The position numbers and the translations under genes are program-made. DNA of 64,000 nucleotides from Blepharisma japonicum (taxonomy: Eukaryota > Ciliophora > Heterotrichea > Heterotrichida > Blepharismidae). Position 1 is the stretch's first letter, and each line of letters begins with the position of its first letter. The stretch covers positions 472,787 to 536,786 of the forward strand of contig CATKHK010000019.1 in the NCBI GenBank assembly GCA_949751835.1. Reading direction: 5' to 3'. The notes beneath the pieces are model-generated. The model made no database searches, was not told where the DNA came from, and saw only the letters and a list, made by a program, of their open reading frames with translations. Positions 1 through 29,161 of this stretch are shown here, in pieces.

Positions 1-1
1 T

Positions 2-2032
2 GTTTTGCTCCGATCTCTTGGATTTAAAAAAGCAGCAGTTTTATATCAAAATGATAGCTGAGGCCAAGGTGGATATTATTATTTAAGACTAGGTATGAGT
101 AATCATGATATAAATTTAGTCAATTCTGAAGAATCGAGAGTTATTCCTGTTGGACTTGATAGAAATACAATAAAAAACTATTTAAATATTATACAAGGAG
201 TTATAGATTCTCAAGCAAGGCTGATTATTTTTATTATACAGTTTCCTTTAGTGCAGTATATATTGGAAGCTTTCTATGATTTAGGCTTGAGAAGAGGTGA
301 TGTAATGATTTTTACTGCTGTTCCTGATATTTTGACTAATATTTTAACAAAAGATGATTTTCTGTATAAAAGGCTCGAACTAGGTGTCCCTATGATAACA
401 TTTTTAGGGGAGCAATGGGTCGGAAAATTTGGGCAGGGGGTTCATTCAAAAATGCTTCAAGTTTACAATAATTCTGATCCAAGCTCATTTTCATGCCATT
501 ATTTTGATATAGTATATTTAATAGGTCATGCTCTTGATTTCATGATAAACCGAGGACAAGACTACACAAATCCTTATAAATTAGAAAAAGTTATAAGAAA
601 TACCCAATTTATAGGTTGTTCTGGGCGAGTAGTACTAGAAAAAGAGAGTAATGATAGATTCATGTCAGTTATAGACGCCCTAGCATCTAAATTTGATATT
701 AATGGAAATGTTGTACGATATCTTGTAGGGGAGGTAAAACCTGTTAGTACACAAATTTTGTATATGTATAATCCACTTATTTATCCCGACGGAACTACTA
801 ATAAGCCAGACGATTTAAGAAACCAAAACAGCAATTGTCCTTTTCCTGATAATGAAGTAAAAACGTTTGTTAAAGGAAAAATTCTTGTTTTTTGTATTTG
901 CTTTGTTATTGCATTTATATCAATAATAATTATCTATTTTATATGAAAAAGATGATGGAATATTCCAATAGAAGAGCTTAGAGAAAGGCAAGAAATTTCT
1001 TATGAAGATGTGCTGGTTGGTGTTACAATTGCTATTGAATTTTTCCAATTTGTTTCGATGGGTCCTAGTATATCGTATTTAAGTTCAATTTTAGGAAAAT
1101 TCAGTAACTCATTAACTTTGGAATTGACAAATATAATAAAACTCAAAAATGGGATGTTTTGATTAATCGTTGATGCTGTATATGGATTTATACTGCTTTG
1201 GATTTGTATGTGTGCTGTCATTATTTTTCGTTTAGATGAGAAATATTCAAAATTTTGAGTTTTCAGGTTTGTAAACTGGCTTGGAGATTTTTTAATGCCA
1301 ATTTTAGGAAATTTGTGCTTTATTCCTTTTATTTCAATTTGTCTTGATATTTTCGTGTGCGATCAATCAATAGGAGATAGCTTCACAGACAGTTTTTTAT
1401 CATATGATTGCTATTATTTTTGCTGAAAAGATGAGCATTTAGCATATGCAATTTTATCGATTTTTGCTTTATTGTGTTATGAGCCGCTTGCTGTTTTTTG
1501 TAGGCCACTTTGGCAAGAGCTACAGCCAATGCTCCATGTAAAAGCTGCTCCTTCTTTTTTAATGATAAAAACAATAGTCCAAGTGTCTTTAATTGTGATG
1601 AATAAAACAGTAAAAAGAGCCCAAACTATTACTCATGGAGTTTTATTTATTTTTGTTATGATTTTTTATATTGTTTTTCTTTTCAAATTTAGACCTTATA
1701 ACTATTCCAGATTCAATTTATGGCAAAATTTAAGTTTAATGGGAGTTGTATGGACAGCTGTTCTATCTACAATTGCATTAGGCGCACAAGGAAATTCCAT
1801 AATTTTAACAGTACTATTGTTTATTGGATGGTGTATTATAATATTATTTGGATTATATATCCAAAGGAAAAGATACCCAAGTTTATTATTTAGAAAGAAG
1901 CCTCATGATACCACAAGTTTATTTAAATTCGCCTTTACTTTTGGCAAGAGCTCTCGTAAAGCATTGACTAAAATAGCACCACCGAGTAGTTCATCGGAGC
2001 GCCAGAAGATAAATATTTTTGATAAAGATTAA
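2..2032 (+). CDS. Receptor A: Venus-flytrap multi-pass receptor, 5' end outside the window
   Basis: The frame is open from base 2 to a TAA at 2030-2032 if TGA is read as Trp; the start lies upstream of the window. The first ~260 codons are the second half of a type-1 periplasmic-binding (ANF-receptor-like) domain: an AVLYQNDSWGQGG stretch, then the lobe ending in YPDG..NKP-D-LR. A Cys-Pro-rich neck and a hydrophobic segment near 880-945 follow. About seven further membrane segments fill the C-terminal half, with a Cys-containing loop (CDQSIGDSF to CYYFCW) and a cytosolic KSSRKALTKIAP tail. The tail and overall sequence place it with receptors C and D. In-frame TGA codons occur at conserved Trp sites (after QNDS, in the KRWW neck motif, in FCWKDE). 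Role inferred: a surface receptor sensing small extracellular ligands; the ligand is unknown. Confidence 0.85.
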
Positions 2033-4247
2033 TTATAGTTTATTACTCAATAGCATTTTATTATATTCTTAGCTTAATAACTCTAATATGATTTATCACA
2101 TTTTAAAATACTTTGAATGTGAAATCAAATCTTTTAAAGAAATAATAGCCTAAGAGTTTCAAGTTAGTTAATTTAGGATAAAACTTTCTTTAAAAAATGA
2201 AACTTATAAGAATTAAATAAATATTTTGAAGTAATGGAGATGCAAAGCAGTGCCTATTATTTCAATTTAATTTGCAAAGATAAAGAAGCTTTAGAGAGCG
2301 AGAATTTTGGTATATTATAAAAATATTTCATATCAAATTTTTTAAACTAAAAAATGATTTTTGCATTCAGCGCCAGTAGCTGTAAATTCTTAATCCATTG
2401 TTTGAAGTAAGTCAGAGAATACTTTATTATTGATTAAACTAATCAAAGGTTTTGGTCAAATTTTTATTAACAAATTTGTCTTAGAAGTCTTGAAAACACA
2501 TATTCAATTGTAGACCATTTTCTCTGTTAATTGATAAAATGGAATGCCGACGTCATCTATATACTTTATATCGTCCCTTCTATTTCTGCTTTAGTTTATT
2601 CTTTGGGTCCAATTTTAAATTCTTGAATGGAAAATTTTATTTTATATCCTTACTTCATTTTTTGGTCATAGATTTTTTGTGAAATTTTTCTAATGTAACA
2701 TTTTTTATTTAATTATACAAGTCTTATTAAGAATTTCTGAGATCGCATTAATGATGAACTTATTTTTTAAATTAAATTCACTTAATAATGAAATTAAGTA
2801 GCAAAATAAAGACAAATTGGCTAATGAAGATATAAATTTTATTATTGCAGATATTCTTTGGCTGAAAAACTTATTTATATAGTAGAGCTTAAGTTCTTAG
2901 GCAAATATATAAATTATTTGAAAATTAGTTTTCGTACAAATTTGAATGGGACAAAAGATTGTAAAAATATAAAAAATATGCTTACTAACTAATTATATTT
3001 AAAATTAATGTGAAAATCAATGATATAAAATATCATGGGAGAGTATTAATATTAATTTATTTTCAAATTAATAGTATAAAACATTATAAAGATTTAATAA
3101 ATTTACTTCTATATAAGAAAAGGGATAAAAATTTAAAAGTAGCATATTCAAAAAAATTGCGTGTTAAGATATGATAAAAATTGAAGCTACGATTTATCAT
3201 GTTAGAATTATATTATCTCAATTTTAATCGATCAAAATAAATTTTTATAAGGGCTTCTATTAATAAAGGCTTCATATTATCTAAAATTGAAATTTAGAAA
3301 TTGTAAAAATTATTTCTATTTTTTAACAATAATTGATATACTATTTTATTGGTTTTTGGTATTTAATTCTTTATTCCTATTAAATTTAAAAAACTTGGAG
3401 CTTTTCATATGTAAATTTTAATTGAATCTAATAAGATTAGTTAATGAATTTGATCTTTTAATAATAATATATTTATTAGTATAATTAGCATTTAATAATA
3501 GGTATGGTGAGTTAAAGTGGCCATGAGTTAAAACTTGATATCTGAAAGCATTACCATTAGAATTAAAACTTATAAGAGAAGTCCTTATAAGGTCCTTGAT
3601 TCTATTTCCTTTATTCTGCCAAATTGCCCAAAGCCGGTAGACGCTCTTTTACCTTCTCAAGGTTTCTGATGCTCACACGGGCTCTGGCAATAGGACTGTA
3701 AGATAAAGAATAATTCTTAACACAAAATTTTGAAAGCAGCTTGATTATTATATTTTTATTTTTCATTTTAGATATTCCAAAAAGGGATAAAAGAATCAAG
3801 CAAATTCAATAAGAAGCTTAACTACCCTTTGCTAATTTTTGAATTTAAAGTTTATCTCTTACAAATTCTTAAGCACGAAAATTAAATAAACCTTGATTTT
3901 AAAGACATTGTTAAGAAATGGCTATTTTAATTTAGCTCAAACATTCAAAATATTTTTTTGTGCTATTGAATTATCAATAATTACTATAATTAATTTTGTT
4001 TAATTAATTAAATTCATCTCTTAAATTTATTTTTTCTAATAAATAAAGGAAAACTTATTTTGGTTGAGCTCTTATAAAAAATACCATGGTAAATACTATT
4101 AGAATAATCACTTATTTAAACTAAATCTAATAAATACATATAAAGCTTATAAAATTTCAAGTTTATTTCTTGAGTCCTTTTATTTAGATTATTATAAGAT
4201 TGGATCGCTTTTTTTTTAATTATATTATACATAAGATCTTATTCAAG
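2033..4247. other. AT-rich intergenic spacer
   Basis: This 2.2-kb spacer between receptors A and B has no coding frame I can support. Most of it is very AT-rich with stops in all frames. One patch at about 3618-3695 is richer in GC. On the minus strand it reads as the last ~27 residues of a short frame (3611-3799) ending in KERLPALGNLAE. It could be a decayed gene end; I do not recognise it and do not call it a gene. Confidence 0.5.
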
Positions 4248-7200
4248 ATGAGCTTTCTTCAGAATCTTTGAAAATTCGTGCTGCTATCTATTATATCCCA
4301 TTATTCAACCTCTTTAGAAATCATAGTTGCATATTCGCATGGAACAGACTTAATTTCTGACACTTATAATGAAACTTCTATTCTCCAAGTAACTCAAACA
4401 CTTACTTCATTCGTAGACTGACACCCCTGCCAGATCTTAGATCTTTCTTCATGTCTCAGCAGCTTCCCAAATTCCTCAATTCTGCTAGACTTATCAAGTG
4501 AGCTTGACATTCAAAATTCAATTTCCCAATTGTGCAGAAGCCATATGATTATCCATTTTGTGCTTCAAAGCAAAATGAAATTTACCGATGAGTGGACTTT
4601 TTCTGTTACTTCAACAAAGGAGCAACAGATAAAAGCTTTTTTAGCAGTTTTGGAATACTTGAATTGGACTCAGGGAGTTGGATTTATCAATAAGAAGAAT
4701 TATGATATAAAAGAAATAATTACAAATTATTCTTCAGATTTTAATTTTTTGATTGTTGAATCTGAGTCAAGCATTGAGGAACTTGTAGACAAAGTCGTGG
4801 TGAGGCAAGGCGCTACTGTTTACTGTATATTTACTGATTTAACAGAATCGCTAAAAATACAAAATGGATTAAAAGATGCAAAACTTTTAACAGTTGGAAA
4901 CGGAATTATTTTGGATCAAGAAAGTGGGTATAAATGCAAGATTGAGGGCTCTTTAATTGTGACTGAGTTTGGGCAAGAACTTGCAGGTTCTACAGAGGAA
5001 TTTTTGAAAAACTCAATAATAAATACTATCTCATATATTTTAAGCCAAAATTCAAAAGAAACGACTCAAGATATTCTTTCAATATTAAAAAACAGTCAAA
5101 ATAAACGCAAATTCTCTTTGATTAATATTCAGAAAGGAAAAAGAGTAGTTGTTGGGTCAATTATAAATGATAAAAGCCAAGGAGAAGAACATTTAACGGG
5201 CTCGACGTTTTCTTTTTATTTATCAAACAACTTGACTTTTCCTGGAAGCTCGGCGAATATTCCAAAATCAGTACAAAAAATATTAAATGTAAGTATGAGC
5301 GCTGGGCCTTCGAATCCAAATGCATTGCCTGCTTTAAGTGGTGTAATTGGTGCCTGGGGCACATATTTAGCAATGGACGAAATAAATGAAGGTCATGGCC
5401 TTATTCCTAATTTCCAACTTGCATTTTTTAATTATGACTGTGGGTCTACAGTTTATAATTCAAAATTCGCTTATACCTGCTATAAAAATGACATTGGCAA
5501 ATTTGGGCTTGCTCATATTCCTCCTTTTAGTTCTAGTGTAACCCTGGGAGTATTAAAAACATTTAAACAGCTAAATGTCACATTTCCTGTTGTTGGCTGC
5601 TCAAATACTGAGCCATCGCTTAATGTAACAAAAGATTATCCTATGTTTACAAGAGTTTGATTTTCTGCATCCTATGGAACAGCTTTGCTTTCAGTTCTTG
5701 TCAAAGTTATGGGATGGCAAAAAATTTCAATTTTATATCAAAATGACTCATGAGCCATATCTAAGTCTTGGTATTTAAATCCAGCAATAGAAAAGCAAGG
5801 TCTAGAAATAGTAAACCCTGAAAGCTCACGATATATACCTGCAAATCTTGATAGAGAAGGACTGAAGAACTACACAAGTCTTATACAAACTATTATCGAT
5901 TCTCAAGCAAGATTACTTATTCTAAGTGTCCAGTACCCAATGTGCAATTTTTTATTAGAAATGTTTTACGATTTAGGTCTAAGAAAAGGCGACTTGATTA
6001 TTTTTGCAACTTATCTTGATATGCTGACATATATAGGAAACAATGATACATATACTTATAAAAGACTAGAGCTTGGAATTCCTATGTTCAGGCTCATTTT
6101 ATCAAGCTGGGTCGGCGAAATTGGCCAAAGAACCAAAAACAAAGTCATAGAAATTCATAAAGAAAATCCATTAGTATACACCTGCCCATATTATGACGGC
6201 GCTTATCAAATGGCCCATGCTTTAGATTATATGATAAACAGAGGCCAAGATTACACTGATCCTTATAAGCTAGAAGCAGTCATAAGGATTCAGAAATTTG
6301 TAGGGTGCACAGGAACAATATCGACAGAAGCAGATAGCAACGACCGCATTGCAGACTCATATGATATAGAAGGTAATGGTCTTGATAGTACTGGAAGCAT
6401 TACTACAGAAGTAATTGGACAATTAAAGCCTTTTTCTTTACAGATTTTGACGATAGAAAATCCTATTGTATATCCTGATGGGACTAATATAAAGCCTAGT
6501 GATTTAAGAAATCAGAATAGTAAATGTCCATTTCCTGATAAAAAAATAAAAACTTTTGATAAAGGAAGAGGACTACTATTTGGGATTTGTTTTTTTGTTG
6601 CACTTATTACCATTGTAATTACAGTATTTATATGGAAAAAATGGTGAAATATATCAATTGAACAGCTTAAACAGAAAGAAGAAATTTCTTTACAAGATAC
6701 AATTATGGGAGTATCCATAATAGTGGAATTTTTCCAATATGCTTCTATGGGGCCTAATTTCTCACTTTTAAGCTCTCTTTTTGCGAAATTTTCTGATGCT
6801 TTGTCATTGGATTTGGATGATGTAATAAAATTAGAAAATGGGGTGTTTTGAGTTGTAGTGGATATCGTTTTTGGTGGGATTGCACTGTGGGGTATTCTTT
6901 GCGCTGTTGTTTTGCTAAGACTAGATGAAAAATGGAAAATTATTTCAATTTTTAGATTTTTATCATGGCTTGCAGACTATTTGATGCCAATATTGGGGAA
7001 TTTATGCTTTATTCCTTTTATTTCTATATGTCTTGATATTTTCTTATGTGATCAATCAATTGGAGATAGCTTTACAGAGAGTTTTCTTGCTAGAGATTGC
7101 TATTATTTTTGTTGAAAAGATGAGCATTTGGTATATGCAATCCTTTCATTTTTAGCATTATTTTTATATGTGCCTTTAGCTATTTTCTGCAGACCACTTT

Positions 7201-7676
7201 GGCAAGAACTGCAATCAATGTTGCATGTAAAAGCAAGCCCAGTTTATTTGATGGTGAAGACTATTTTTCAGATAACATTAATTGTTATGAATAAAACAAT
7301 AAAAAGATCTCAAGATATAGCTCATGGGCTATTATTTATAATAGTCTTAGTTATTTACACTATTTTTACATTCAAATTCAAGCCTTACAACTACGCAAGA
7401 TTTAGTTGGTGGCAAGGATTAGTTTTAATTGGAGTCTCATGACTAGCTTTTCTTTCTACAATTTCAATAGTGATAAAGCATGATTTTACTGCATTGCTAA
7501 TTGTTTTAATTCTAGGATGGTTTTCGATTGGGATGGTAGGACTGTATATTCAAAAGAAAAAATATCCAAGTTTGTTATATAGAAAAAGTGCTAAAGATAC
7601 GTCAACTTTGTTCAAATTTGCTTTTAATTTCAGAAAAACTACAGCATTTTCAAAGGGAAAAATCGTTCCAGATTAA
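4248..7676 (+). CDS. Receptor B: double Venus-flytrap, ~8-TM receptor
   Basis: Complete gene of 1142 aa; ATG 4248 opens a hydrophobic signal peptide (MSFLQNLWKFVLLSII) and the frame closes at TAA 7674-7676. Residues ~22-325 resemble a first ANF-receptor/Venus-flytrap domain, including NWTQGVGF, the GATVY strand, and a closing NLTFPGSSANIPKS motif like the end of class C receptor ligand domains. Residues ~336-745 are a second, clearer domain (ILYQNDSW, IDSQARLLI, GLRKGDLIIF, closing YPDGTNIKPSDLR). A neck with CPFPD and TM1 at ~774-796 follow, then about seven more TM segments with an extracellular Cys loop and the tail KYPSLLYRK..STLFKFAF. At least eight in-frame TGA codons are read as Trp. 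Closest to receptors E and F. Plasma-membrane ligand sensing is inferred; there is no cyclase or kinase domain. Confidence 0.9.
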
Positions 7677-8224
7677 AACCTAATTACTTATAAAAAAATT
7701 AAATCTTGAATATCTTAAATTATGGAATTGAGCATTCATTGGTGAAAATTAGAAAGTTTGTATAATTAATAAATTCTTTAATATATTATCTTATATATTG
7801 GAATTCCTTAGCTCAAGCATTTTTTAATTTATAAAAAAATTGCTGTTGATAAGCAAGTTGCAAGTAAAATTACAGTGTACTTTCAATTTTCTTTCTTTAT
7901 CAAAAATAGAGCTATTTTAAAAAAATGTGTATGAAGATATATTTATCTCAATTAATTTGCAATTAAAAATAATATTTTTAATCATATTAGCATGAATTAA
8001 AACAAATCAATAAGAAGTAAAAAGCTCTTGTGAGTTCTCAGATTTTTAATTTTGACTGATAATAGCTAAACATTGATTTAATGTAGAAAATTTTTTTTTA
8101 AAATATTTTAATAATCAATAGAATTTTAAGGGCTTGCTATTAAATGCCTTAAAATGGTATTTTATAAATATTTTTGGATTAAAATAGCTGAAATTTTCAA
8201 AAATCCCTATCATAAATTTAACCA
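7677..8224. other. AT-rich intergenic spacer
   Basis: This is the spacer between receptor B and the broken receptor copy. It is strongly AT-rich with no open frame or recognisable element. Confidence 0.5.
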
Positions 8225-8970
8225 TAAAATCAGCTACTTGGGGCCGAAGTGGCTATTATTATTTTAAGGTAGGGGTAAGCTCACATGATATAGATTTAGC
8301 TTATCCTGAAGAATCAAGAGCAATTCCTGCTGGACTGGATAGAGCGGGATTGAAAAATTATCTAAGGTTATCCAAGGCGTAATTGATTCCCAAGCAAGAC
8401 TAGTCATTTTTATCATACAGATTCCATTAGTGCTATATGTATTAGAGACTTTTTATGATTTAGGTCTAAGAAAAGGTTGATATATATATTTGGTATGCTA
8501 ATGCGTGTTCTCAGAAATATCAGGATAGAGTGTCTAGAGCTTTTACTCTCCAATTCAATTGGGAAATCGCTTTAAGTTGATAAAAAGGTATTAAGATCGG
8601 CTTATCATTATTAGATTGGATAGCCAAAACCAAGTTTCTATAAAGGCTTTGAGCACGCTAAATGAGTGCTCTATTCATATTTATATTTACTGCTGTCCCA
8701 GATACCTTGTCCAATATTTTGACAAATGATGATTTTCTATATAAAAGACTAGAAATAGGAGTCCCTATGATGACATTTCTGGGAAACAGTGAGTTGGAAA
8801 CTTTGGAAAAGGGTTCTATTCAAAAATATTGCGTAAATATAACAATAGTGCTCCAAGTTCATATGCGTGCCATTATTTTGATATTATTTATTTAATAGGC
8901 CATGCCCTGGATTTCATGATGGACCGAGGGCAAGATTATACAAATCCTTATAAACTTGAAAAAGTTATAA
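8225..8970 (+). pseudogene. Broken receptor fragment (A/C/D subfamily)
   Basis: Translating piecewise recovers the middle of the second Venus-flytrap domain: a WG.SGYYYF block, PEESRAIPAGLDRAG, VIDSQARLVIFII, YDLGLRK, then AVPDTLSNILTNDDFLYKRLEIGVP, and finally DFMMDRGQDYTNPYKLEKVI. Both ends are missing. A one-base loss after KNYLR (about 8365) shifts the frame, and ~200 bp of unrelated DNA splits the GDILIF strand (about 8484-8680). The fragment is closest to receptors C and D. No signal peptide, first flytrap domain or membrane part is present, so it is a dead duplicate rather than a spliced gene. Confidence 0.88.
8484..8680. mobile_element. ~200-bp insertion inside the receptor pseudogene
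   Basis: Aligning the pseudogene with receptors A, C and D shows foreign sequence between GGTTGATATA and TTTATATTTACTGC, where the paralogues are continuous. The edges are TA-rich, and a short TA/ATA duplication of the target is possible. The left part (GCTAATGCGTGTTCTCAG) and the reverse complement of the right part (TTTAGCGTGCTCAAAG) are similar, suggesting imperfect subterminal inverted repeats. It has no coding capacity. It could be a MITE-like element or, if this were germline DNA, an internal eliminated sequence. Exact borders are uncertain by about 6 bp. Confidence 0.5.
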
Positions 8971-9461
8971 GTAAAAATTACAAATAATGCTTTATAATGT
9001 TGACCCTATAGGACAATTATTGCAAAAAGTTGCAGGGAGTTTACCAGTCACTCCATATGTTTAGCAAACTTATTAGAATAAATATATTGTAGAAAATTTG
9101 ATTTTCTTGATATATAGGAAGGGGCTATCTAGGTATTTTTATTCTCACCAAACGAAAAAAAGTACCCTGCTTTAATTAATAGTCTTAAATTATGTAATCA
9201 ATGATAAAATGCTCTTATTAAGTCAGATTATCTAAAAATTTATATATTCGTATTTTCTTCTAATGATTTTTACTAATTTATAGGGGATACTCTGCTTCCT
9301 TCATTGACAAGATACTTTAATTGATCCTTTTTTTTATATTTGGTTATCAGTTTTCGATAAGCAGCACTGATATATATCGATTGCTTTGCGAATTTTTATT
9401 ATCATTAACTCAAATTTTTAATTTTCTAAGGAAATTAATTAAAAAAATCACAATGTCACTG
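8971..9461. other. AT-rich spacer upstream of receptor C
   Basis: No coding frame or repeat was recognised. It presumably holds the promoter of receptor C. Confidence 0.45.
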
Positions 9462-12400
9462 ATGTGAAAACAGAAATCTTTTATAAGGCTATTCTACTTA
9501 GCATGATTTATCAATCTTACAGTTTCCATAGAAGTCATTATTATTCAAGGGAGCGATGATAAAAATGACTTTTTGTGAAATGATATAACTATAACCTCCT
9601 CCCTTCAGAATTCTGCTCCTCAAATCGATTGGCACATTTGCCAATACATATCAGCCCTTCAATGTATCAATTCATATCCAAACGCCTATATATTGCTCGA
9701 TCTATCACAAGACCTAAGCACCCAACTTACAATATCCCAGCTCTGCCAAGAGTTAAAAATAGTCCACTTGGTTATCCAAGACGAGTTCAAATACCTCGAT
9801 GATTGAACTTATTCAGTCATTTCCTCTAAAACACACAGATTTAATGCTTTTTTTTCTATACTAAACTATTATAGCTGGAGCAAAGGAATAGTTTTTACGT
9901 CCTGGGAAGATGAAGAAAGGTTTTTGAATTTTACAACAAACTTTGAATTAATGATTATTGAATCGTGAACTGACATGGAAAATTTAATAATGCGAGTTGT
10001 GCCGCCTTTGGGATCAACTCTTTATTATGTTTTTACACAAAATAATGAATCCCTTTCTATACAACATTATTTAGCAAGTGCACATTTATTGACGGAAGGA
10101 AGTGGAATTATTTTAAATCAAAAAAGCGGGTATGGTTGCAAAACGGAAGGTGCTTTAATTATCACAGAGGAAGGACAAGAAAATGCAGATTCAGAAGAAA
10201 AATATTTGGAAAATTCCATTGTGAAATTTCTCAACGCTATAATAAACACTCAAAGCTCACTTGAAGCAATCACAATACTGAGCAATATCTGGAAATCTCA
10301 TTATGGGCAAAATAAATTTTCTCTTGTCAATCTACAGGCTGGAAAACGAGTTAAAATAGGATCAATTATTAATGAGCAAATTCTCATTCTTAATAACACA
10401 ATTTTTCCAGGAAAAACCACATCAATCCCAAAATCCAACAAAAAAATCCTAAACCTTAGCATTGAAGCAGGAATTACAAATCCAAATTATTCTCCCTCAA
10501 CAATCGGATCTATGGCAGCAAGAGGAGCTTACTTAGCAGTAGACTATATAAATTCAGGCACCTCTGGAATGTTACCAAATTATCAAATTGAGATGTTTAA
10601 TTATGACTGCGGCGTGACTGTTTATAATGCAGCCTATGCTACTGCTTGCTTTAAAAAGGATTTTAATAGTTTTGGCCTAGCTCATGTTGTGTCATATGCA
10701 TCCTCAATGGCTCTTGGGGTGCTAAAATTATTCAAGTCTTTGAACTGGACTTTTCCAATTATAGGGATCAATTCAGATCCTTCTTTTAATTCCTCTACAC
10801 TTTACCCATTTTATCAAAGGGTTTGGCCATCAACTTCATTTACGCTCCCTTTAATCCCTGTTTTATTGAGATCTCTTGGCTGGGAAAAAGCAGCTGTCCT
10901 ATATCAAAATGATAGCTGGGGCCAGGGCGGGTACTATTACTTAAGAATGGGAGCAAATACCCATGATATGCTGTTTGTGAATCCTGATGACACAAGAGCG
11001 ATTCCTACAGGACTTGACAGGACAACAATAAAAAACCACTCAGATATTATACAAGGAGTTATCAATTCAGATGCAAGGCTAGTCATTTTTATCATTCAGG
11101 TCCCATTAGTGCAATATGTAATTGAAACTTTCTATGACTTAGGCTTAAGAAGGGGTGATATATTAATATTTACAGCTGTTCCAGATATATTAACTAATAT
11201 TTTAACAATCGATGACTACCTTTATAAAAGACTGGAAATTGGAGTTCCCATGATAACTTTTTTTGGGGAACAATGAGTTGGAGAGTTTGGGCAAGGCGCC
11301 TATTCCAAGATTGTGAAATTGTATAACGCTACTCCAAGCTCATTTGCCTGTCACTATTTTGATATAATATACCTAATAGGTCATGCTCTTGATTTTATGA
11401 TCAACCGTGGACAAGACTACACAAATCACTATACACTGGAAAGAGTTATCAGAAATACACAGTTTACAGGTTGCTCTGGACGGGTGATAATCGAAAAAGG
11501 AACCAATGATAGAATTACATCAGTGTTAAATGTCCAAGCAGATAAATTTGATATAAGTGGAAATGTAATTCCTTATTTTATAGGAGTGCTAAAGCCTTTT
11601 AGCACACAAATTTTACATATTACTAACCCACTTGTCTATCCTGATGGGACTACTATAAAGCCAACAGACTTAAGAAACCAAAATAGTGACTGTCCTTTTC
11701 CTGATAATAAAGTAAGAACTTTCACTAAGGGGAAAATTCTGATTTTTGGCATCTGTTTTGCAATTGCTTTAATATCAATTATAATAACGTTCATTATATG
11801 AAAAAGATGATGGAATATCTCTATAGAAGAGCTCAAAGAAAAACAAGAATTTTCTTTCCCAGATATGATTGTTGGTATCACAATCGCTATCGAATTTTTC
11901 CAATACGCTTCGATGGGACCTAATATGTCATATTTAAGCTCGGTTATGAATAATTTCAGCAATTCTCTGACTTTGGAGCTTACAAATATTATAAAACTCA
12001 AAAATGGAGTCTTTTGGATAATTGTTGATGCAGTGTATGGGTTGATACTCCTATGAATTTCTATGTGCGCAGTTGTTCTTTTTCGCCTAGATGAAAAATA
12101 TTCCCATTTTTCTCTTTTTAGATTTATAGCTTGACTTGCTGATTATATGATGCCAATTTTAGGAAATTTGTGCTTCATTCCGTTTATTTCTATATGTCTT
12201 GATATTTTTGTATGTGATCAGTCAATTGGAGACGATTTCACTGATAGCTTCCTATCATACGATTGCTATTATTTTTGCTGAAAAGATGAGCATTTAGCAT
12301 ATGCAATTTTGTCATTTTTCGCTTTATTGTGTTATGAGCCGCTTGCAGTATTTTGTAGGCCGCTCTGGCAAGAATTGCAGCTTCTTTTGCATGTAAAAGC

Positions 12401-12890: not shown

Positions 12891-12974
12891 TTTTTTTCTA
12901 TCTAAGACCATTTTGAAGTTTTTTAATTCTTTTAGTCATTATTATTGAATATGGTATTATAAAACATATAAGAA

Positions 12975-16498: not shown

Positions 16499-19400
16499 TT
16501 AGTCAGCACTTTTGATCCCAGATGGCATTATTTTGCCTTTTGAAAGTGTACCTTTTCCAAAAGTAAAGGCAAACTTAAATAAAGTAGACGTATCTTTACC
16601 CCTTTTTCTGAATAATAAGCTAGGATATTTTTTCTTTTGAACGTATAATCCAAGAGCAACAATTGCAAGCCACCCACCTATTAAAACTACAAGTAAAGGA
16701 ACAAAATTATCTTTTATTCCTATCGCAATTGTGGATAGTGAAGCTAGCCATACAACTCCAATCAAACTTAGCTCTTCCCACCAGCTAAATCTTGGGTAAT
16801 TATAAGGCTTAAATTTAAACGTAAAAATTATATATATAATCATCACAATGACGAATAAAACTCCATGTGCGATATTTTGAGATCTTTTTATTGTTTTATT
16901 CATCACAATTAATGTAATCTGGATCACACTTTTTACCATCAAATATAATGGAGCAGTTTTCACGTGCAGCATATGTTGTAATTCTTGTCAAAGAGGCCTG
17001 CAAAATATTGCCAATGGGACATATAAAATTAGTGCAAGAAATGATCCAATTGCGTACCCTAAATGCTCGCCTTTCCAGCAAAAATAATTGCAATCCCTTG
17101 CAAGAAAGCTGTCAGTAAAGTTATCTCCGATTGACTGGTCACATAAGAAAATATCAAGGCAAATTGAAATAAAAGGAATAAAGCACAAATTCCCTAAAAT
17201 AGGCATAAGATAGTCAGCAAGCCATGATAAAAATCTAAAAATGGAAAAAAACCTCCACTTCTCATCTAGCCTTAGCAAAACAACAGCACAAAGAAGTGCC
17301 CATACCCCAACCCCGCAAAAAACTATATCCACGACAATCCAAAAAGTTCCTTTATCAAAATTCAAAATATCCCATAGACTTAGTGAAAGTACATCTGAAA
17401 TTTTTGCAATAGCAGAGCTCAAAATATCGAAATCAGGCCCCATAGCAGTGTATTGGAAAAATTCTATAACAATAGACGCTGCTACTATTGTGTCTTCTAT
17501 AGAAATTTCTTCTTTTTGTTTTAGCTCATCAATAGAGATATTTCATCATTTTTTTCATATTAGCACTGTAACACCAAAAGAAATTAATGCAACTGAAAAG
17601 CAAACCCCAAATAGCAGCTCTCTTCCTTTATCAAATGTTTTAATTTCTTTATCAGGGAATGGACATTTACTATTTTCATTCCTTAAATCGCTAGGCTTAT
17701 TGGTAGTTCCATCAGGATAAACAATAGGATTTGTGATACTTAAAATCTGAGCCGAAAATGGTTTTAATTTACCTATAAATTTTGTAGTAATTGCACCAGA
17801 TAAATCATCCTGACTGACCTCTATATCTCACCCGTCAACAATCCTGTCATTCGTCCCTTTCTCTATTGTTACCCTTCCTGTGCATCCTTGAAACTGCTGA
17901 ATCCTTATGACTGCTTCTAACTTTTTAGTGTCAGTGTAATCCTGCCCTCTATTTATCATATAATCCAAAGCATGAGCCAAAAGATAAACTCCATCATAAT
18001 AAGGGCAAGTAAACGCATTTGTAGGCTCTTTATAGGTTGCCATGACCTTTGCTTTAGCTTTTTCCCCAATTTCTCCTACCCAATTTTGTTGAATCATCCT
18101 AAACATCGGAACTCCGACTTCAAGCCTTTTATATAGATAAGTATCATTGCCTCCAATAATAGTTAGCATATCCAAATAAGTCGCGAAAATTAGCATATCA
18201 CCTTTTCTCATGCCTAAATCATAGAGCATTTCTAGCACAAAATTGCACATAGGATACTGTACCGTAACTATCAATAATCTTGCTTGGGAATCTATGATTT
18301 TCTGGAACACATTGGTATAGTTTTTTATAGTGGTTCTATCAAGATTCGCGGGAATATATCAAGTGCTTTCTGGATTCATTATTTGTAAGCCCTGACTTTT
18401 GATGGCTGGGTTTAAATACCACGACCTTGAAATTGCCCATAAATCGTTTTGGTATAAAATCGCAATTTTTTTCCATCCCATAACTTTGATTAAAACTGAG
18501 AGTAATGAAGAAGCATAAGCTGTGGAAAACCCTACTCGGGTGTACATTGGATAGGTTTTCGTTACATTTAGAGAAGCATCAGAATTGGTGCATCCTACAA
18601 CTGGAAAAGATGCATTAAGAGATTTGAAAGTCTGCAATGCTCCAACAGCTACACTTGAGCCATATGATGAAATATGGCCTAAGCCAAATTTATCAATGTC
18701 TTTTAGAAAACAACTATAAGCAAATTTCGCATTATAGACGGTAGCTCCACAGTCATAATTAAAAAACGCAAGCTGGAAATTTGATAAGATGCCGTGGCCT
18801 GCATTTATCTCATCTCTTGATAATCATGCACCTCTAGCACCGATTACGCCACTTGTAGCTGGCAGTGCATTCGGGTTTGTTGGCCCAGCATTTATGCTTA
18901 AATTCAAAATTTTTTTGGTAGATTTCGGAATTATGCTTGATTTCCCAGGAAAAGTAAGGTTATTTGCTATAAAAACATCATTATTTATAATCGTCCCGAC
19001 AATGATTCTTTTGCCATTCTGGATGTTGACTAAAGAAAATTTGTTTTTATCAGGATAATTTTTAAGCACAGAGAGCAGATTTTGGGCATTTTCCTTTGAA
19101 ATGTGACTTAAAATGTAAGAAATGACATTTATAATAGAATTTTTAAAATATTCTTCAGAAGATTCAGTATATTCTTGCCCATAATCAGTAATAATTAAGG
19201 CTCCATCTGTATCACACTGGTACCCGCTTTCTTGGTTTAAAATAATTCCATTACCAAGTGATAAGAGTTTTGCATGATTTAAGTATTTTTGAATCTCAAG
19301 TGACTCTGAGATATGAGAAAATATATAGTAAACTGTGGCCCCTTCTCGAAAAACAACTTTATTTACAAGCTCTTCGATGCTTGATTTAGCCTCCACTCCT

Positions 19401-19915
19401 AAAAACTTGAATTCGCTTGAAAATTTTTTAACTTTTTCTTTAAAATCATAATTCTCTTGATTGTAAAACGCAATCCCCTGCGTCCAATCTAAATATTCGA
19501 GAGCTGCTAAAAAAGCATTTATTTGATCGGTTTTAGGCGAAGCAAGCGAGAAAGTTCAATTGTCAGAATATTCTAAGCTGCTTTCTAGAACCAAGTGAAT
19601 TATGAAATTGCTGATGCATAACTGTGAAATTTTGTTTTGGGTATCTAAATTGATAGATAAATCAAGCAAAATTAATGAACCCGGAAAATTGCCAATGCAT
19701 TCATCAATGAGTGAAATCTCGCATCTGTGTCAGTCGACAGATGAATTTAGTGATTGAGTCATATCAAGAATAATAGCTTCGTCTCACATGTCAGAATCTG
19801 AATCACTTCTATCTATATAAGCAATTATAATTTCTAACGAAAAGGATAATTGCGATATTGTGAATAATAAAAGAAGCATTCTGAAATAACGCTGAAGAAC
19901 GCCAAAAGCTGTCAT
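16499..19915 (-). CDS. Receptor E: double Venus-flytrap, ~8-TM receptor
   Basis: Complete minus-strand gene of 1138 aa. ATG 19915 opens MTAFGVLQRYFRMLLLLFTI, a signal peptide, then SLEIIIAYIDRSD. Domain 1 includes EYLDWTQGIAFYNQ and GATVYYIFS and closes with NLTFPGKSSIIPKS. Domain 2 includes ILYQNDLWAISRSWYL, ARLLIVTVQYPMCNF, YDLGMRKGDMLIF and the DYMINRGQDYT block. The membrane half keeps the CDQSIGDNFTDSFLARDC loop, and CRPL-W-QEL has a TGA Trp where the paralogues use TGG. The tail is YPSLLFRKRGKDTSTLFKFAF. These features match receptors B and F. Its 5' flank faces the UBA-like frame at 20294. Confidence 0.9.
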
Positions 19916-20293
19916 ATTAAAATTAAGTTATTTTTGTATAAAAAATAAAGAGCAGACAGAAAAATTACCTGAAAAAAATTTAGAGTCTGTGATATTTCTG
20001 GGAAGGAGGTGGAAAAAAGTTTTCCATTTTGCTTTTTGAGAACAAAAACTATTAGAGTTTTTTTCTAAGTTCTAGCAGCATATTTTTCGGTTTTAAAAAA
20101 GTTCAAAGAAAAAGAAAGCGTTTAAAAGCTTTTATCTGCTTTTAATATTTCAGAATATATCAAGTATCGATCGATGCGCATAAAAATAAAGGTTGCAATA
20201 AAAATGCTATATTTTCAAATTTTTGTATAAACTTAAAAATGTTGGCGTTTTAAAATTTAGCGTAAGCCATCCTAAAACCACTTACACATCGAA
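19916..20293. promoter_or_regulatory. Divergent promoter region (receptor E / UBA-like frame)
   Basis: This 378-bp AT-rich stretch between two divergent starts is where the promoters of receptor E and, if it is expressed, of the UBA-like frame should lie. No specific motif was recognised. Confidence 0.35.
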
Positions 20294-21264: not shown

Positions 21265-21818
21265 CTAATAATAACTAAGCAAGAAAATATTTCAAGCCAT
21301 TTACTTTTTACCCCTCTACTACTGAGTAAACTATTTTATAAAGCTACCTGATAATCTTTAATATTATTTTTGAACAATTAAAATAAATAGAGAACCTTCT
21401 TAACCCTTTTGGAAATTTCAAAATAATTTATTGCTGCTTCCTCTGAGCAGAAGATTTGGCAAGCGGAAAATACAGCTGATTAAGGATCTTTTAAAGCTTA
21501 CAGAGTAAGGTGGCTAAAGAAAGATATATATATTATAATCATGAGCTAAACATGAAGACAGGTGTGAAAATTAAGAATAAATGTTGCAACTAAAATAAAT
21601 AACCAAACCTTGGATTTTTCATAACACCACTATTTTGGAATTTATGTCATTTTTAAGTTATAAATAAATTTTTAACTTATAATGAAATATTATTAAATTT
21701 TAATTTTTTTTTCAAAGATAAAATTTTATTGAGGCATTCAAGAAATCTAAATTTATTAAAATGAGCTTTGTATTCAAAAAGAAAAGAAATGCAATCAAAA
21801 GCTAATAATTATAACTTA
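21265..21818. other. AT-rich spacer
   Basis: Nothing coding was recognised. It forms the 3' flank of receptor F and of the unknown frame. Confidence 0.4.
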
Positions 21819-24800
21819 TTAAGAAATTTTGTGTTCTTTTGGGACTATTTTTCCCTTTGAGAATCCGACACTTTTTCCAAAAGAAAAAGCAAATTTAAAT
21901 AAAGTTGACGTATCTTTGGCGCTTTTTCTAAATAACAGGCTGGGATATTTTTTCTTTTGAATGTAGAGCCCAACAATTACGATAATAAGCCAGCCAAAAA
22001 TCAAAACTGCTAACAGAGGAATGAAATCATGCTGGATCCCTATAGCAATCATAGATATAAAAGCTAGCCACTCAACACCAATTAAGCTTAAGCCTTGTCA
22101 TCAGCTAAATCTTGGATAATTGTAGGGCTTAAATTTAAAAGTAAATATAATATAAATCAGCAGAACTATTATAAACAAAACACTATGGGCTATTTCTTGA
22201 GATCGTTTTATAGTTTTATTCATAACAATTAATGAAATCTGAAAAATACTTTTTACCATCAAATATAAGGGAACAACTTTGACATGAAGCATTAGCTGCA
22301 ACTCTTGCCAAAGAGGCCTACAAAATATCGCTAAAGGTACATATAAAAGCAGTGCTAAACAAGACAGTATTGCATATATCAAATGCTCATCTTTTCAACA
22401 AAAATAGTGGCAATCTCTAGCAAGAAAACTGTCAGTAAAATCATCACCAATTGATTGATCACATAAATAAACATCAAGACAAATCGAAATAAAAGGGATA
22501 AAGCACAAATTCCCTAAAATCGGCATGAGATAATCAGCAAGCCATGATAAAAACTTAAAAATAGATATAAACTGCCATTTTTCATCAAGTCTTAACAAAA
22601 TAACAGCGCAAAGAACAGCTCAGAGCCCAATTCCTCCAAAAACAATTTCTACAACAACCCAGAATACCCCATTTTCCATCTTTAAAATATCATCTAAATT
22701 CAGTGACAATGAATTAGAAAATTTCGAAACTATAGAAGAAAAAATTGAAGTTTCAGGTCCCATGGAAGTATATTGGAAAAATTCCACAATTATTGATACT
22801 CCCACTATTAAATCTGGCACTGAAATTTCTTCTTTTTTCTTTAGCTCATCAATTGATATATTTCATCATTTTTTCCATATTAAAACAGTAATTACAAATG
22901 TAACCAAGGCAACAACAAAGCAAATCCCAAAGAGCAGCCCCCTTCCTTTAGGAAAAGTTCTTATCTCTTTATTAGGGAATGGACATTTATTATTTTCATT
23001 TCTTAGATCGCTGGGCTTAATAGTAGTTCCATCAGGATAAACAATAGGATTTGTGATGCTTAAAATTTGGGAGGAAAAAGGCCTTAATTTCCCTATAAAC
23101 TGAGTAATAACATTTCCTGCTTCATCGAACTCATTTATTTCGATGTCTCAGACGTCAACAATTCTGTCATTAGTCCCTTTCTCAATTGCCACTTTTCCTG
23201 TGCAGCCTTGAAATTGCTGATTTCTAATAGCCGCTTCTAGTTTATAAGGGTCAGTGTAATCTTGCCCTCTGTCTATCATATAATCCAAAGCATGAGCTAT
23301 AATATAAATCCCATCATAATAAGGGCAAGTATATGAATTTGTAGGTTCTTTAAACATAGATGTTATTTTTTCTTTAATACTTGCTCCTTTTTTACCTACT
23401 CAATTTTGTGGAAGCATTCTAAAAGTTGGAATACCTACTGCAATCCTTTTTCATGCATAAATATCATCTTTTCCAGCAGCAGTTAGCTGATCCAGATAAG
23501 TTGCGAAAAAAAATAAATCACCTTTTCTAATTCCAAGATCATAAAAAAACTCCATCAAAAAGTTATACATAGGATACTGCATAGTCAAGACCAATAGCCT
23601 AGCTTGGGAATCAATAATGCTTTTTATTGTGCTGGCATAATTTTTTAAGCCTTCTCTATCAAGACCTGCAGGAATATATCAGGTACTTTCTGGATTCACA
23701 ATTTCTAATCCTTGCTTATCTATAGCTGGGTTTAAATATCAAGACCTTCCTATTGCCCAAGTATCGTTTTGATATAAAATCGCGATTTTTTTATATCCCA
23801 TAACTTTGATTAAAACTGAAAGCAATGAATAAGCGTACGCAATGGAGTAACCCACCCTTGTAAACATAGGAAAATTTGAAGTGGAGTTTAATGAAGCATC
23901 AGTATTTGAGCATCCAACTATTGGGAATGTTAAATTGAGCAGTTTAAATGTCTGCATTGCTCCAATCGCTACATTGGAAGCATATGATGACACATGGCCA
24001 AAACCGAACTTGCCAATATCTTTTAGAAAACAGCTATAAGCGAATTTCGCGTTATAAACAGTAGCGCCACAGTCGTAGTTAAATAGCTCAATATGAAAAT
24101 TCGGTAAAATGGTGTGACCATCATTTATTTCATCTTTTGCAAAATAAGTACCTCTTGCTGCAATTACACCCCCTGTTGCAGGCAATGCATAAGGATTTGT
24201 GGGGCCTGCATTTATGCTTAAATTCAAAATTTTTTTGGTTGACTTTGGAATAGTATTTGAGGTCCCAGGAAAAGTCAAATTATTTGTTATGACGATATTA
24301 TTATTTACAATTGATCCAACTACCACTCTCTCTCCGCTCTGGATATTCACCAAAGAAAACTTGTTTTCATTAGGACTATTTCGGAAGCCCTTCATAATGA
24401 CTTGAAGATCTGACGATGTTTCATTTGAAGTTTGGTCTATAATAAAAGAAATTGCACTTACAATAGAGTCTTTAAAATATTCACTAGAAGAAGCTGCAAA
24501 TTCGTGTGCGAAATCAGTGATAATTAAAGCGCCATCAGTTTCACACTGATAGCCACTTTCTTGATCAAGAACTATTCCATTACCAGATGTAAGAAGTTTG
24601 GATTTTTTTAAGTTTTTTTGGATTTCTAATGATTGTTCTCAGTTTGCAAAGAGACAATATACAGTTGCACCTTCTCTAAAAGCAACTTTATTGATAAGCT
24701 CTTTGATGCTTGACTTTGTTTCAACTGCCAAAAAATTAAATTCATATGAAAAATGTTTCATGGTTTCTTTTACTTCGTAATTCTCTTTATTATTAAAAGC

Positions 24801-25229
24801 AATCCCTTGAGTCCAATTTAGATATCTCAGTACTGATAATACAGCAGTTATCTGCTCAATTTTAGAAGAGCCAAGAGAAAATGTTCACTCATCAGCAAAT
24901 TTTATGTTGCTCTGGAGAACTAAATGAATCAAAATTCGACTTTTGCATAAATGGGAAATTGAACTTTGTGTCGCTATATCATTTGATAAATCTACTAGAA
25001 TCCTTGCATTTGGAAAGCAGTCAGCACAGCGAGGAAGATTTGTAATGCTACATTTGTGCCAGTCCACAGAAGCACTTAACGATTGAGTGATGCTAAAAAT
25101 AAAGGTTTCGTCTTGATAAAGACTGTCCTCATAAGCGATTATAACTTCTAATGGGGTGGATAAGTGTAAAAAAGTAAATAATGTCAAGGTTTTCCACAAA
25201 ATCTGTGATCGAATATGTGGAATTATCAT
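21819..25229 (-). CDS. Receptor F: double Venus-flytrap, ~8-TM receptor
   Basis: Complete minus-strand gene of 1136 aa starting at ATG 25229, with signal peptide MIIPHIRSQILWKTLTLFTF. Domain 1 includes RYLNWTQGIAFNNKEN and GATVYCLFANWEQS and closes with NLTFPGTSNTIPKS. Domain 2 includes RGTYFAKDEINDGH, ILYQNDTWAIGRS, the YDGIYIIAHALDYM block and YPDGTTIKPSDLR. The membrane region keeps GNLCFIPFISICLD, the CDQSIGDDFTDSF loop and CRPLWQEL. The tail is STLFKFAFSFGKSVGFSKG. It is closest to receptors E and B. Several TGA codons fall at Trp positions (TPQNWVG-type motif, YAWKR, FADEWTF). The frame is intact throughout. Confidence 0.9.
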
Positions 25230-25777
25230 ATTGGTTTAATTCTTAAAAATAATTGCAAATAAAGATTTAAAACATTAAAAGAAAAATATTTTTCAAAGAA
25301 GCAATTATGGCTTCAAATTTGTGTGTTTTTATTTTTGGATAAATACATATAAAACAAATAAGTATCAGAAACTTTAAACAAGCTAAATATTCTTATTCAT
25401 TATCTTTATATATTTTATAAGCGGTTTTAAATTTGGAAATAAGACATAAATCAAAACAATTAAAATCTAATTTTATATGAGAAGAATTTCTTAATAATTA
25501 TTGCATATTTATAATTAGCTTGTTTAGAAGAGCAGACACAAATTCTTTATCATTTAATAAAGAAACTTTAATAGAAAAATTTCTTCTTAATTCTTCAGAT
25601 GCTATTGTTACAGCTTTAGTAATCATTAATTTTATATCCATTTATTATTTTCCGATAGCCTGCTAAGCAAATAAAAATAATTTCCATTAATTAAAAATAT
25701 AAAATATAATAGATTAATAAATGTACTATTATTTAATGGCATCTATAAATTCTAAACTATGAGTAAATTTCAATAAC
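25230..25777. other. AT-rich spacer between receptors F and G
   Basis: No coding frame was recognised. It contains the receptor F promoter side and the receptor G 3' end. Confidence 0.4.
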
Positions 25778-28700
25778 TTATTCATCCATCAAATAAATAC
25801 TGCTTTTTAGGCTAAAGTTAAATGCGAACTTAAATAAAGCAGACTCATTTCTCGGTTTCTTTTTATAAAGTAAGCTTGGGTATTTTTTCTTTTGGATTAT
25901 AATGCCTACTAAGCCAATCAAAGCCCACCCTACAATCAAAATTGTTATATAAACTATTGAGTTTCCACCCTCGGACAATAAAATGACCGATAAGAAGGCC
26001 AATCAAATTACTCCAATCAAACTAAGGGCTTGCCAGAAGTTAAATCTCCCATAATTAAAAGCTTTGTATTTCAAAATATACCACACATACGCAGCCATTA
26101 TGATTATGAAAACAATTCCATGAGATATATCATTAACTCTCTTTAGCGTTTTATTTAAAGTAATTAGGACCATTTGTATGATAGACTTGACCATAAGATA
26201 AAGTGGCATTGCTTTAACATGGAGGGTTAGCTGTAGCTCTTGCCAAAGTGGTCTAAAAAAGACAGCCAGCGGCTGATATAAGAGTAAAGCTACAATAGAA
26301 AGAATTGCATACATTAAATGTTCATCTTTTCAGCAGAAATAATAGCAGTCTTTTGCAAGGAAACTGTCGGAGAAACTGTCTCCTATAGACTGGTCGCACT
26401 GAAAAAGATCAAGACAAATTGATATAAAAGGCATAAAACATAAATTCCCCAAAATTGGCATTAGGTATTCTGATAATATACCTAGATTCCTGAATATTCA
26501 GATATTATCATATATTTCGTGAAGCCTCAGCAGAACAACAGTGCAGAGAATGACTCATAGCCCAATAGAGCCTAAAACAATATCAACAATTACTCAAAAT
26601 ACTCCATTTTTAAGCTGTATAAAATCTTCTAAGTCAAATGTCATTGCTTGGCTGAGTTGAGATAATAGAGAGATTAAAGCTTCGAAATCAGGGCCCATAG
26701 ATGCAAATTGAAAAGATTCAATAACGATGGTTGCAGCTACTATGAAATCTTGCAAAGAAATTTCTTCACGCTCCATAAAATTATTTATTTTGGTATTCCA
26801 CCATTTTTTCCTTATCAAAAATGCTATAACCCCAGTAATTAAGGCTAAGGTAAAGCAGATCCCAAAAAGCAAGGCTCTTCCTGCTGCGAAGGTCTTGATT
26901 TTTTTCTCGGAAAATGGGCACTTGTCATCAATTATTCTTAAATCAGAAGGCTTAATGGTGGTACCGTCTGGATAAACTAATGGATTTTTAAAAAATATAA
27001 GCTGTGTGCTAAATGGCCTTAAAGTACCAACTAAAGAGATATTTGCAGTCCCTGCTGTTTGGTTCACATTGATGCATTCGAGTTGGTATAAATCGAAAAC
27101 CCTGTCATTACTATACTGTTCAATTTGAATATATCCAGTACAGCTTGCAAATCTTTGGACTCTCAGCGCTTGAATTAATTTATAAGGATTAGTATAATCT
27201 TGTCCTCTGTTAATCATGAAATCAAGGGCGTTTGCTACAATATAAGCACCGTCATAGTAGTTGCATCCAAATGTATTCGGCGCAATATTATACATCGCCC
27301 AAATTCTTTTTAAAGCATCTTGGCCTATATCGCCCAGCCAGCTTGGTGTTATAAGACGAGTCATAGAATGTCCAATTTCCAATCTTTTATATAAAAAAGT
27401 ATCATTATTTGAAATATATGTTAGAGGATCAGGATTTGCTGTAAAAATAATTATATCCCCTCTTTTCATTCCTAAGTCATAAAACGTTTCTAATACATAA
27501 TTGCACATTGGACATTGGAAGACCATAATAAAAAGCCTTGCTTGAGAATCAATAACTCCTTGGAACGCACCTGTATGGCTTTTTATGGAATTTCTATCCA
27601 AATTAGGAGGGATCGTTCGCAACTTTTCTGAATTAATAATTTCCAAACCAACACTTTTAGCAGCATTTTGAGTAATGGAATAAGTGTTAATTCCCCATGA
27701 ACTGTTTTCATATAAAATTGCTGCCTTTCTCCATCCAAGGGCTTTGACGAGTACTATATTTTCGGTGTAAGCCAATGCAGAAATAACTCTGACATACAAA
27801 GGGTAGTTTTGGGTAGATCTTAAGCTAGGATCACCATTGGCACTTCCAATACAAGGAAGAGATGCATTTAACTGAGCAAAAGTCTTCATTGTACCTATTG
27901 CCATTGCAGATCCATACGAAGTCAAATGAGCTAACCCTAATTTATCGATATCGTTGCTGAAGCAAGATTTTGCAAAGGTCGCATTGAATATAGTGACCCC
28001 GCAGTCAAAATTAAATAGCTCTGTATGAAAATTTGGCAAAACATCGTTGCCTTGATTTATTCTATTCAAACACGCATAAGCTCCCATTGATCCTAATTTC
28101 TGTGTCATGCTTGGTTGAGCGCCGGGGTTTGTTGTTCCAGCATTAATACTTAAATGCAAAACCTTTTTAGTTGATTTTGGGGTAGAATATACGTTGCCTG
28201 GAAATGTGATATTATTAAAAATAATTACTCCATCATTAGTAATGTATCCCACAATCTCTCTTTTGCCTTTTTGGACATTAACGAGTGAAAATGCTCGCAG
28301 ATTGTAAGAATTTGAGATTCTCGAATCAAGAAGAAGCTTGATTTCATCATAGGTTCCGCTTGTGTTTGATATGAAATTAATCATGTTTATGATAGAATGC
28401 TGAACATACTCTTCAAATGATGAGTCGTACTCATAGCCCATCTCTGTAATAATTAAAGCACCCTCTAGATTGCATACGTAGCCACTTTCTTGGTTTAATA
28501 TAATTCCATTCCCAGGTATCAAAAGTTTTGCATTTTTCAACGATTTTTGTAGCAACAGCGACTCTGAAGGCTCTAAAAGTGCGTAATAAAGAGTCGCACC
28601 CAATCTTGAAACCTCTCTGTTGACTAAATCGTCAAAACTTGTCATTGTTTCTACCGATAGAATTTTGAATTCAGTCGAAAAACTGAGAAAATCAGTTTTG

Positions 28701-29161
28701 GCTTCATAATATTTTTTATTAATAAATACGACTCCTTGTGTTCAATTAAAATACCTCAGCACTGAAAAAAGCGCTCACTGCTGGTCAGCCAGTGAAGATG
28801 AAATTGAATAGGTTTGCTGAGTTGAATATTTGAAAAATGTTTGATAAGACAAATGAATTAAACGGCTATCAAGACAGAGCTGGGAAATTGCATATTGAGA
28901 TCCATTGTCAGTTGATAGGTCAATTAGAACTTCAGCATTTGGAAATTCTTCTATGCAGTCCTTTATCTCAGAATAATAGCATGTGTGTCAATCTGTGTCA
29001 GAGTTCGTTTCCTTTGATAGGGAGATTTCTCATGAACTATTATTTTTTTCAGAAATATTTCCTCTGCTCCCAGGATAAACAATTATCACTTCCAGAGTGC
29101 TAGATATAATGAAAAAGCTGTAAAAAAGAAGTATCTTGCATTGAAAAAAGTTCTTTACCAT
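25778..29161 (-). CDS. Receptor G: divergent double Venus-flytrap, ~8-TM receptor
   Basis: Complete minus-strand gene of 1127 aa; ATG 29161 opens signal peptide MVKNFFQCKILLFYSFFII, then STLEVIIVYPGS. It is the most divergent member. Domain 1 keeps RYFNWTQGVVFINKK, GATLYYALLEPSES and the closing NITFPGNVYSTPKS. Domain 2 keeps ILYENSSWGINTY, GVIDSQARLFIM, YDLGMKRGDIIIF, NALDFMINRGQDYT and YPDGTTIKPSDLR. The neck DKCPFSEKKIKTF, TM1 and CRPLWQEL-type region (FRPLWQELQLTLHVKA) are conserved. TM3 starts from a changed linker (NIWIFRNLGILSEYLMP). The tail KKPRNESALFKFAFNF is shorter than in the others. It may represent an older lineage with a different ligand. Confidence 0.9.

Follow-up and report, generated by a model that had tools for sequence, protein, structure and literature searches.

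What function can be served by a row of large, closely packed genes that resemble receptors, and through what kind of membrane machinery would their products act? The question is raised by a 64-kb stretch of DNA (hereafter the window), which is the terminal part of contig C19 (positions 472787–536786 of 536786) in a genome of 45.2 Mb assembled in 224 contigs. An earlier note on the window had described seven open genes and one dead copy, all coding for large receptors with two flytrap domains and a preserved membrane part, and had read them as a chemosensory or self/non-self recognition repertoire. According to the data presented below, these genes form one end of the largest array found for a family with at least 161 loci. 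On balance, the architecture of the proteins and the expansion of the family suggest that it is probably a chemosensory repertoire built on an unclassified transducer of 7–9 helices.

Window genes and their reading frames

Open reading frames were called under NCBI table 4, in which UGA encodes tryptophan. The claim of seven genes hinges on this choice, because under table 11 each of the seven frames is interrupted, the longest piece having 683 aa; in-frame TGA occurs 8–14 times in each of the six complete genes and 6 times in g1. Under UGA=Trp seven open family genes and one dead fragment were confirmed, as the earlier note had them. The first gene, g1, is truncated by the window edge and is whole in the contig, where it forms a 1216-aa frame (C19:471168–474815). 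The six complete frames encode 1138–1189 aa from stop to stop, the seven proteins are 49–77% identical in pairs, and the dead copy spans just a part of the second flytrap. The short spacers of 84 and 101 bp already pointed out are right: 101 bp separate the stops of g4 and g5, while the 81 bp between the g3 stop and the g4 frame become 84 if the stop codon is counted. The features, with g5 as the reference for domain numbering, are as follows.

2–2032, plus strand: g1, family gene represented by its 3' part, the 5' part being cut off; ANF_receptor E 5e-15
4188–7676, plus strand: g2, complete open frame, 1162 aa; ANF_receptor E 1.9e-22
about 8167–8969, plus strand: dead copy, second-flytrap pieces in several frames found by tblastn, nearest to g1, g3 and g4
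9321–12890, plus strand: g3, complete open frame, 1189 aa; ANF_receptor E 2.3e-22
12972–16397, plus strand: g4, complete open frame, 1141 aa; ANF_receptor E 9.4e-20
16499–19927, minus strand: g5, complete open frame, 1142 aa; ANF_receptor E 2.1e-23
18932–19840, minus strand: likely first (N-terminal) flytrap of g5, residues 30–332, diverged; from model, Foldseek and profile bridge
17666–18931, minus strand: second flytrap of g5, residues 333–754; ANF_receptor at residues 370–693, profile matches to mGluR7, GABA-B1 and ANP receptor
16592–17665, minus strand: membrane half of g5, residues 755–1112; CPF, 7–9 predicted hydrophobic helices, three-Cys loop, basic C-terminal tail
21819–25235, minus strand: g6, complete open frame, 1138 aa; ANF_receptor E 1e-22
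25778–29257, minus strand: g7, complete open frame, 1159 aa; ANF_receptor E 9.6e-16

The family genes look intron-free, because 39 of 40 scored family matches (the best 40 of 346 candidates) contain neither TAA nor TAG over about 1100 codons. Introns of 15–16 bp have been reported for Blepharisma genes (PMC9942806), and an intron-length test of the right half of the window gave no clear 15-nt peak.

The whole array and the genome-wide family

Contig C19 was tiled by overlapping pieces from position 407051 onward, which showed no conflicts, and then scanned by tblastn for family copies. The count of seven open genes and one dead copy held inside the window and fell short of the whole array, which begins some 64 kb to the left of the window and comprises 19 intact frames (1135–1216 aa) within 408.5–502 kb of C19 (about 95 kb), together with five broken or partial copies. 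Four of the latter are located at 430625–432927, 445228–446007, 466601–469981 and 480953–481755; the fifth is a piece at 407448–407690, near the left edge of the scanned sequence. Four consecutive plus-strand genes (408–427 kb), three more (433–445 kb) and a four-gene minus-strand block (450–466 kb) each form one clade in the tree. The average identity of array neighbours is 66%, compared with 55.6% after shuffling of the gene order, and none of 5000 shuffles reached the observed value, so the local expansion proposed earlier is borne out. Among 22 inter-gene gaps, 20 contain no frame longer than 89 codons, one contains a frame of 190 codons, and one 4-kb gap contains a frame of 706 codons; the latter (C19:426557–430624) lies within the array and was unmatched in the family tblastn scan.

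Genome-wide, the ANF_receptor profile gave at least 106 matches (102 of 267 candidates scored), one window protein as a query found at least 40 places including itself (the best 40 of 346 candidates), and a DNA motif taken from the membrane half had 106 matches, compared with 5 when the motif was reversed. Combined, these searches supply the paralogue count that had been suggested as a check: at least 161 distinct loci, which are spread over 49 contigs and of which 118 have a further family locus within 10 kb. This number is a lower bound set by search depth and may count broken copies as well as alleles on small contigs. For 35 loci the DNA motif is the sole evidence; L056, the single member of this group that was examined, is a family gene with ANF_receptor. 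Altogether 47 loci were inspected in sequence, namely L056 and the 46 relatives, window genes among them, whose frame reaches 900 aa or more (two are truncated at a sequence edge) and which were used for further analysis.

Four members, L001, L002, L003 and L005 (hereafter the conserved four), differ from the expanded clade in their tryptophan codons: 7 TGA and 78 TGG against 319 and 366, respectively. They are possibly highly expressed or ancestral-type members. The open-licence PMC literature, represented largely by titles and beginnings of abstracts, yielded no description of the family, and the word “receptor” is absent from the main text of the paper on the Blepharisma stoltei genome (PMC9942806).

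Flytrap domains

The second flytrap was recognised directly. ANF_receptor (PF01094) matched all seven window proteins with 55.8–83.4 bits at a curated cut-off of 25.4, and a profile of this domain compared with PDB retrieved 28 distinct sequences at an expectation value, E, of 0.01, with mGluR7, GABA-B1, taste receptors and the ANP clearance receptor among them. The first flytrap of the window genes was undetected by Pfam, and the arguments for it are indirect. Two ANF_receptor stretches were found in four of six relatives scanned, which are the conserved four, and their N-terminal and C-terminal flytraps matched each other in hhalign at 94%. The N-terminal domains of different groups were bridged by the same program at 99.9% (distant members with the expanded clade), 97.7% (distant members with the conserved four) and 77% (expanded clade with the conserved four). 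An AlphaFold2 model of full-length g5 built from the seven window sequences, with a mean predicted local distance difference test score (pLDDT) of 39, showed beta-alpha repeats in the first domain, with a block pLDDT of 34–82. The top Foldseek matches of this model were chains of ionotropic glutamate receptors, several of them amino-terminal domains alone, at E of about 3e-9, with a TM-score of 0.25–0.58 depending on the target and a root-mean-square deviation of mostly 5–8; these matches presumably fall on the first domain.

Two comparisons weigh against a double flytrap: in hhalign the first flytrap of the expanded clade matched its own second flytrap at only 0.2% and the second flytrap of the conserved four at 0.5%. 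Because direct comparisons failed, the word “double” rests on bridges between small alignments and on a model of low confidence. Thus, the flytrap identity claimed earlier stands on direct evidence for the second domain and on indirect evidence for the first, and the ectodomain of the window genes is likely to be a double flytrap.

Contact positions of mGluR were mapped approximately onto the g5 cleft; Ser/Thr at g5 position 424 and Arg at position 464 are kept in 34 of 34 expanded-clade proteins, while other positions vary. Flytraps commonly bind amino-acid-like ligands, which would suit reception of the mating signal gamone 2 by the family. Gamone 2 is an amino-acid derivative, and PMC10892320, in the passages considered, calls the gamone 1 receptor putative and names none for gamone 2. 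The same source describes gamone 2 as common to Blepharisma species, so that one conserved receptor is needed rather than a large and changing family, and nothing ties the family to mating type or expression; in this light its service as the gamone 2 receptor is quite improbable.

Membrane half

That the membrane part is preserved, as had been stated from the window, was confirmed throughout the relatives: 46 of 46 align through its CPF start, and all 16 loci chosen by the flytrap profile alone (L001–L008 and L041–L048) carry the same membrane half, cut short in two. In 16 diverse members 20 columns are invariant; they include CPF, three Cys within a single loop (C...DC...C), a His after them, the Arg of RPLW and the Pro and Leu of the final PSLL. 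Hydropathy and the low-confidence model suggest nine hydrophobic segments, of which the second and the sixth are weak. In a nine-helix topology the basic tail would be internal, and the N-terminus would be external together with the Cys loop; Lys and Arg then make up 0.19 per loop residue inside against 0.11 outside, with the basic loop after helix 6 as an exception. Because helices 2 and 6 are weak, seven helices instead of nine are possible.

Searches for relatives of this half were negative within their scope. Pfam gave no credible match for 16 membrane halves at E 10, a profile search against PDB gave none at E 10 in two runs, and prokaryote genomes scanned with the membrane half of one relative yielded 22 pattern matches and no relatives. 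Matches to S_4TM were rejected as chance: they appeared in 3 of 7 and then in 2 of 16 members, with best E of 0.004 and 0.009 and a score under the cut-off where it was displayed. An AlphaFold2 model of the membrane half from the seven window sequences had a pLDDT of 41, too poor for a fold, and its best Foldseek match (E 0.81) was not used. The C...CW...H loop between helices may resemble that of ciliate TmcB-like and fungal TRP-like polytopic proteins, which would be a lead at most; those families had no Pfam match in the 16 membrane halves.

Could this half be a channel? The strong conservation of the polytopic core and of its Pro, Trp and Cys motifs, a short cytoplasmic tail and the failure to find G-alpha (see below) would all suit a new type of ligand-gated channel, working in the manner of insect odorant receptors and carrying a flytrap ectodomain. 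On the other side, no pore motif was recognised, no channel family of Pfam matched, and the poor model had no fold match. Because the membrane half is without a recognised relative, “channel” is a guess, which we hold as a tentative possibility.

Selection and divergence

Ratios of non-synonymous to synonymous change (dN/dS) were obtained by counting methods for the 22 closest pairs; these share genes and are not independent, and dS reaches 2 in some of them, so that the values are rough. The median dN/dS was 0.21 for the first flytrap, 0.18 for the second and 0.12 for the membrane half, and pooled values for seven independent pairs were 0.27, 0.17 and 0.12, respectively. In all 22 close pairs the dN of the second flytrap exceeded that of the membrane half, and in 17 of them the first flytrap had a higher dN than the second. 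Mean site rates on the 46-protein tree followed the same order (1.28, 0.94 and 0.76), and flytraps change 1.7–2.6 times faster than the membrane half. The family is under purifying selection, with its flytraps changing faster; the selection that open frames had been taken to imply, and the quicker change of flytraps expected for a recognition repertoire, were thus both found, the latter at the level of domains. At a finer scale, none of 1092 windows of 15 codons had a dN/dS above 1, which weighs against the repertoire reading, and the highest value, 0.96, lies directly after the hydrophobic start.

One can ask on the same data whether the loci are mostly decaying duplicates of little function. 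The five broken or partial copies described above and an in-frame TAG in one of the 40 scored places would fit decay, whereas 19 intact array frames and dN/dS of at most 0.40 in every region of all 22 close pairs do not; this explanation is largely refuted by the dN/dS values and is very improbable.

Synonymous distance was unequal between regions of two pairs: for the pair C19:449963–457689 it was 0.17 for the membrane half and 0.39 for the second flytrap, and for L034/L035 it was 0.09 for the first flytrap and 0.24 for the second. Such inequality within one pair hints at gene conversion.

Tests of receptor class and G-protein partners

Flytrap closure might activate a diverged seven-helix domain coupled to a heterotrimeric G protein, as in class C G-protein-coupled receptors (GPCRs). 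The ectodomain profile matches mostly class C receptors, and seven helices remain if the weak helices 2 and 6 do not cross the membrane. The class C membrane domain 7tm_3 (PF00003) was nevertheless unmatched in the seven full window proteins at E 0.1 and in the 16 membrane halves at E 10. The three 7tm_3 loci of the genome (C5:680687, C25:371904 and C81:97858; L052–L054) are other genes without flytraps; they encode proteins of about 430 aa, one of which is above the 7tm_3 cut-off. A cysteine-rich domain is also absent, g5 residues 694–754 containing no Cys; GABA-B receptors lack this domain too. The seven window proteins gave no match to Lig_chan (S1–S2) at E 0.1 and no Pfam match to a kinase-like or cyclase domain, their tail being short.

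The G-alpha profile PF00503 had 19 matches in the genome (38 of 38 candidates scored), all within profile positions 159–264, the part common to G-alpha and small GTPases. The sole locus over the cut-off (L055, C42:10900–13600) is a row of Arf-like small-GTPase pieces, some of them broken, and the piece scanned scored 183 bits with Arf against 32 with G-alpha. Thus, a canonical G-alpha was not found, in a search that had no eukaryotic positive control. This lack of a control tells against a transducer free of G proteins, as do RGS domains above cut-off in two of the three 7tm_3 proteins (L053 and L054), which would speak for some G-protein signalling in the cell; G-protein effects have been reported in ciliates, and G-protein activity is argued for in Tetrahymena, in the part of PMC3226668 considered. 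With no 7tm_3 match in the family and no G-alpha found, a canonical class C GPCR is unlikely; given the RGS domains and the Tetrahymena work, coupling of a diverged seven-helix domain to a G protein is a weakened reading, which we also rate as unlikely.

Proposed working of the receptors

Based on these data one can assume that each protein starts with a hydrophobic segment (likely a signal sequence), followed by a diverged type-I flytrap, a well-kept second flytrap, a membrane half of 7–9 helices and a short basic tail. An extracellular small molecule, plausibly amino-acid-like, would close the second flytrap, while the first may tune closure or mediate pairing. Closure would move the conserved membrane module, which would relay the signal independently of a canonical G-alpha, perhaps by acting as an ion channel, and the output could be altered ciliary beating or cell state. 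Tandem duplication together with the faster change of flytraps would then generate a repertoire of specificities. Ligand class, chemosensory role and channel-like output are what we infer from sequence, and chemosensing appears to be the most economical reading of architecture and expansion. A repertoire of ligand-binding receptors, as proposed earlier, agrees with the flytraps, the expansion and the order of domain rates, and nothing favours self/non-self recognition over general chemosensing.

Genomic setting

Three consecutive CCCTAACA repeats had 168 matches in the genome against none for the reversed control. The 100 places listed are distributed over 13 contigs: in seven they lie within 425 bases of the contig start, and in the other six at one high coordinate, identified for C4 as the end of the contig. 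Blepharisma stoltei has UGA=Trp, an AT-rich macronuclear genome of 41 Mb and CCCTAACA telomeres (PMC9942806), and from the same code and repeats we infer that the assembly is a macronuclear genome of a heterotrich ciliate, most likely Blepharisma. A subtelomeric location of the array was considered and is unsupported, CCCTAACA repeats being absent from the window. Window position 64000 is the contig end and carries no telomere repeats, so C19 is not closed at its right end.

To the right of the array, window positions 31215–43809 encode an S28 serine carboxypeptidase, a histidine phosphatase, an HD-domain protein and two protein kinases. The frame at 30426–31184 and a 1521-codon frame at 48190–52755 had no Pfam match at E 0.001.

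Comparison with known systems

Natriuretic peptide receptors and receptor guanylate cyclases have the ANF_receptor domain in common with the family, which differs from them in lacking kinase-like and cyclase domains and in having many helices instead of one. Ionotropic glutamate receptors, the top Foldseek matches of the full model, carry a type-I flytrap as their amino-terminal domain; in the family there is no Lig_chan match, the second domain is also of the ANF_receptor type, and hydrophobic segments are more numerous. Class C GPCRs (mGluR7, GABA-B1, taste receptors), which gave the best PDB profile matches, share the type-I flytrap ectodomain and a multi-pass membrane part, whereas the proteins of the family probably carry two flytraps each, lack a cysteine-rich linker and gave no match to 7tm_3; the search for G-alpha in the genome was likewise negative.

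One could go further and propose an undescribed class of eukaryotic receptors, with two flytraps on an unclassified polytopic module, free of G-alpha and probably a ligand-gated channel, with more than 160 loci as a repertoire of animal size and one conserved member receiving gamone 2; taken together, this proposal has a small chance of being right. If the proteins are working receptors, a single cell would possess a flytrap repertoire resting on an unclassified membrane module, with no G-alpha found. Chemoreception without canonical G proteins would then become testable in a culturable ciliate, and so would the question of what receives the mating signals of Blepharisma. In its tandem organisation the array resembles the vomeronasal V2R repertoire, and with at least 161 loci the family, if its members are working receptors, would be comparable in size to the olfactory families of animals.

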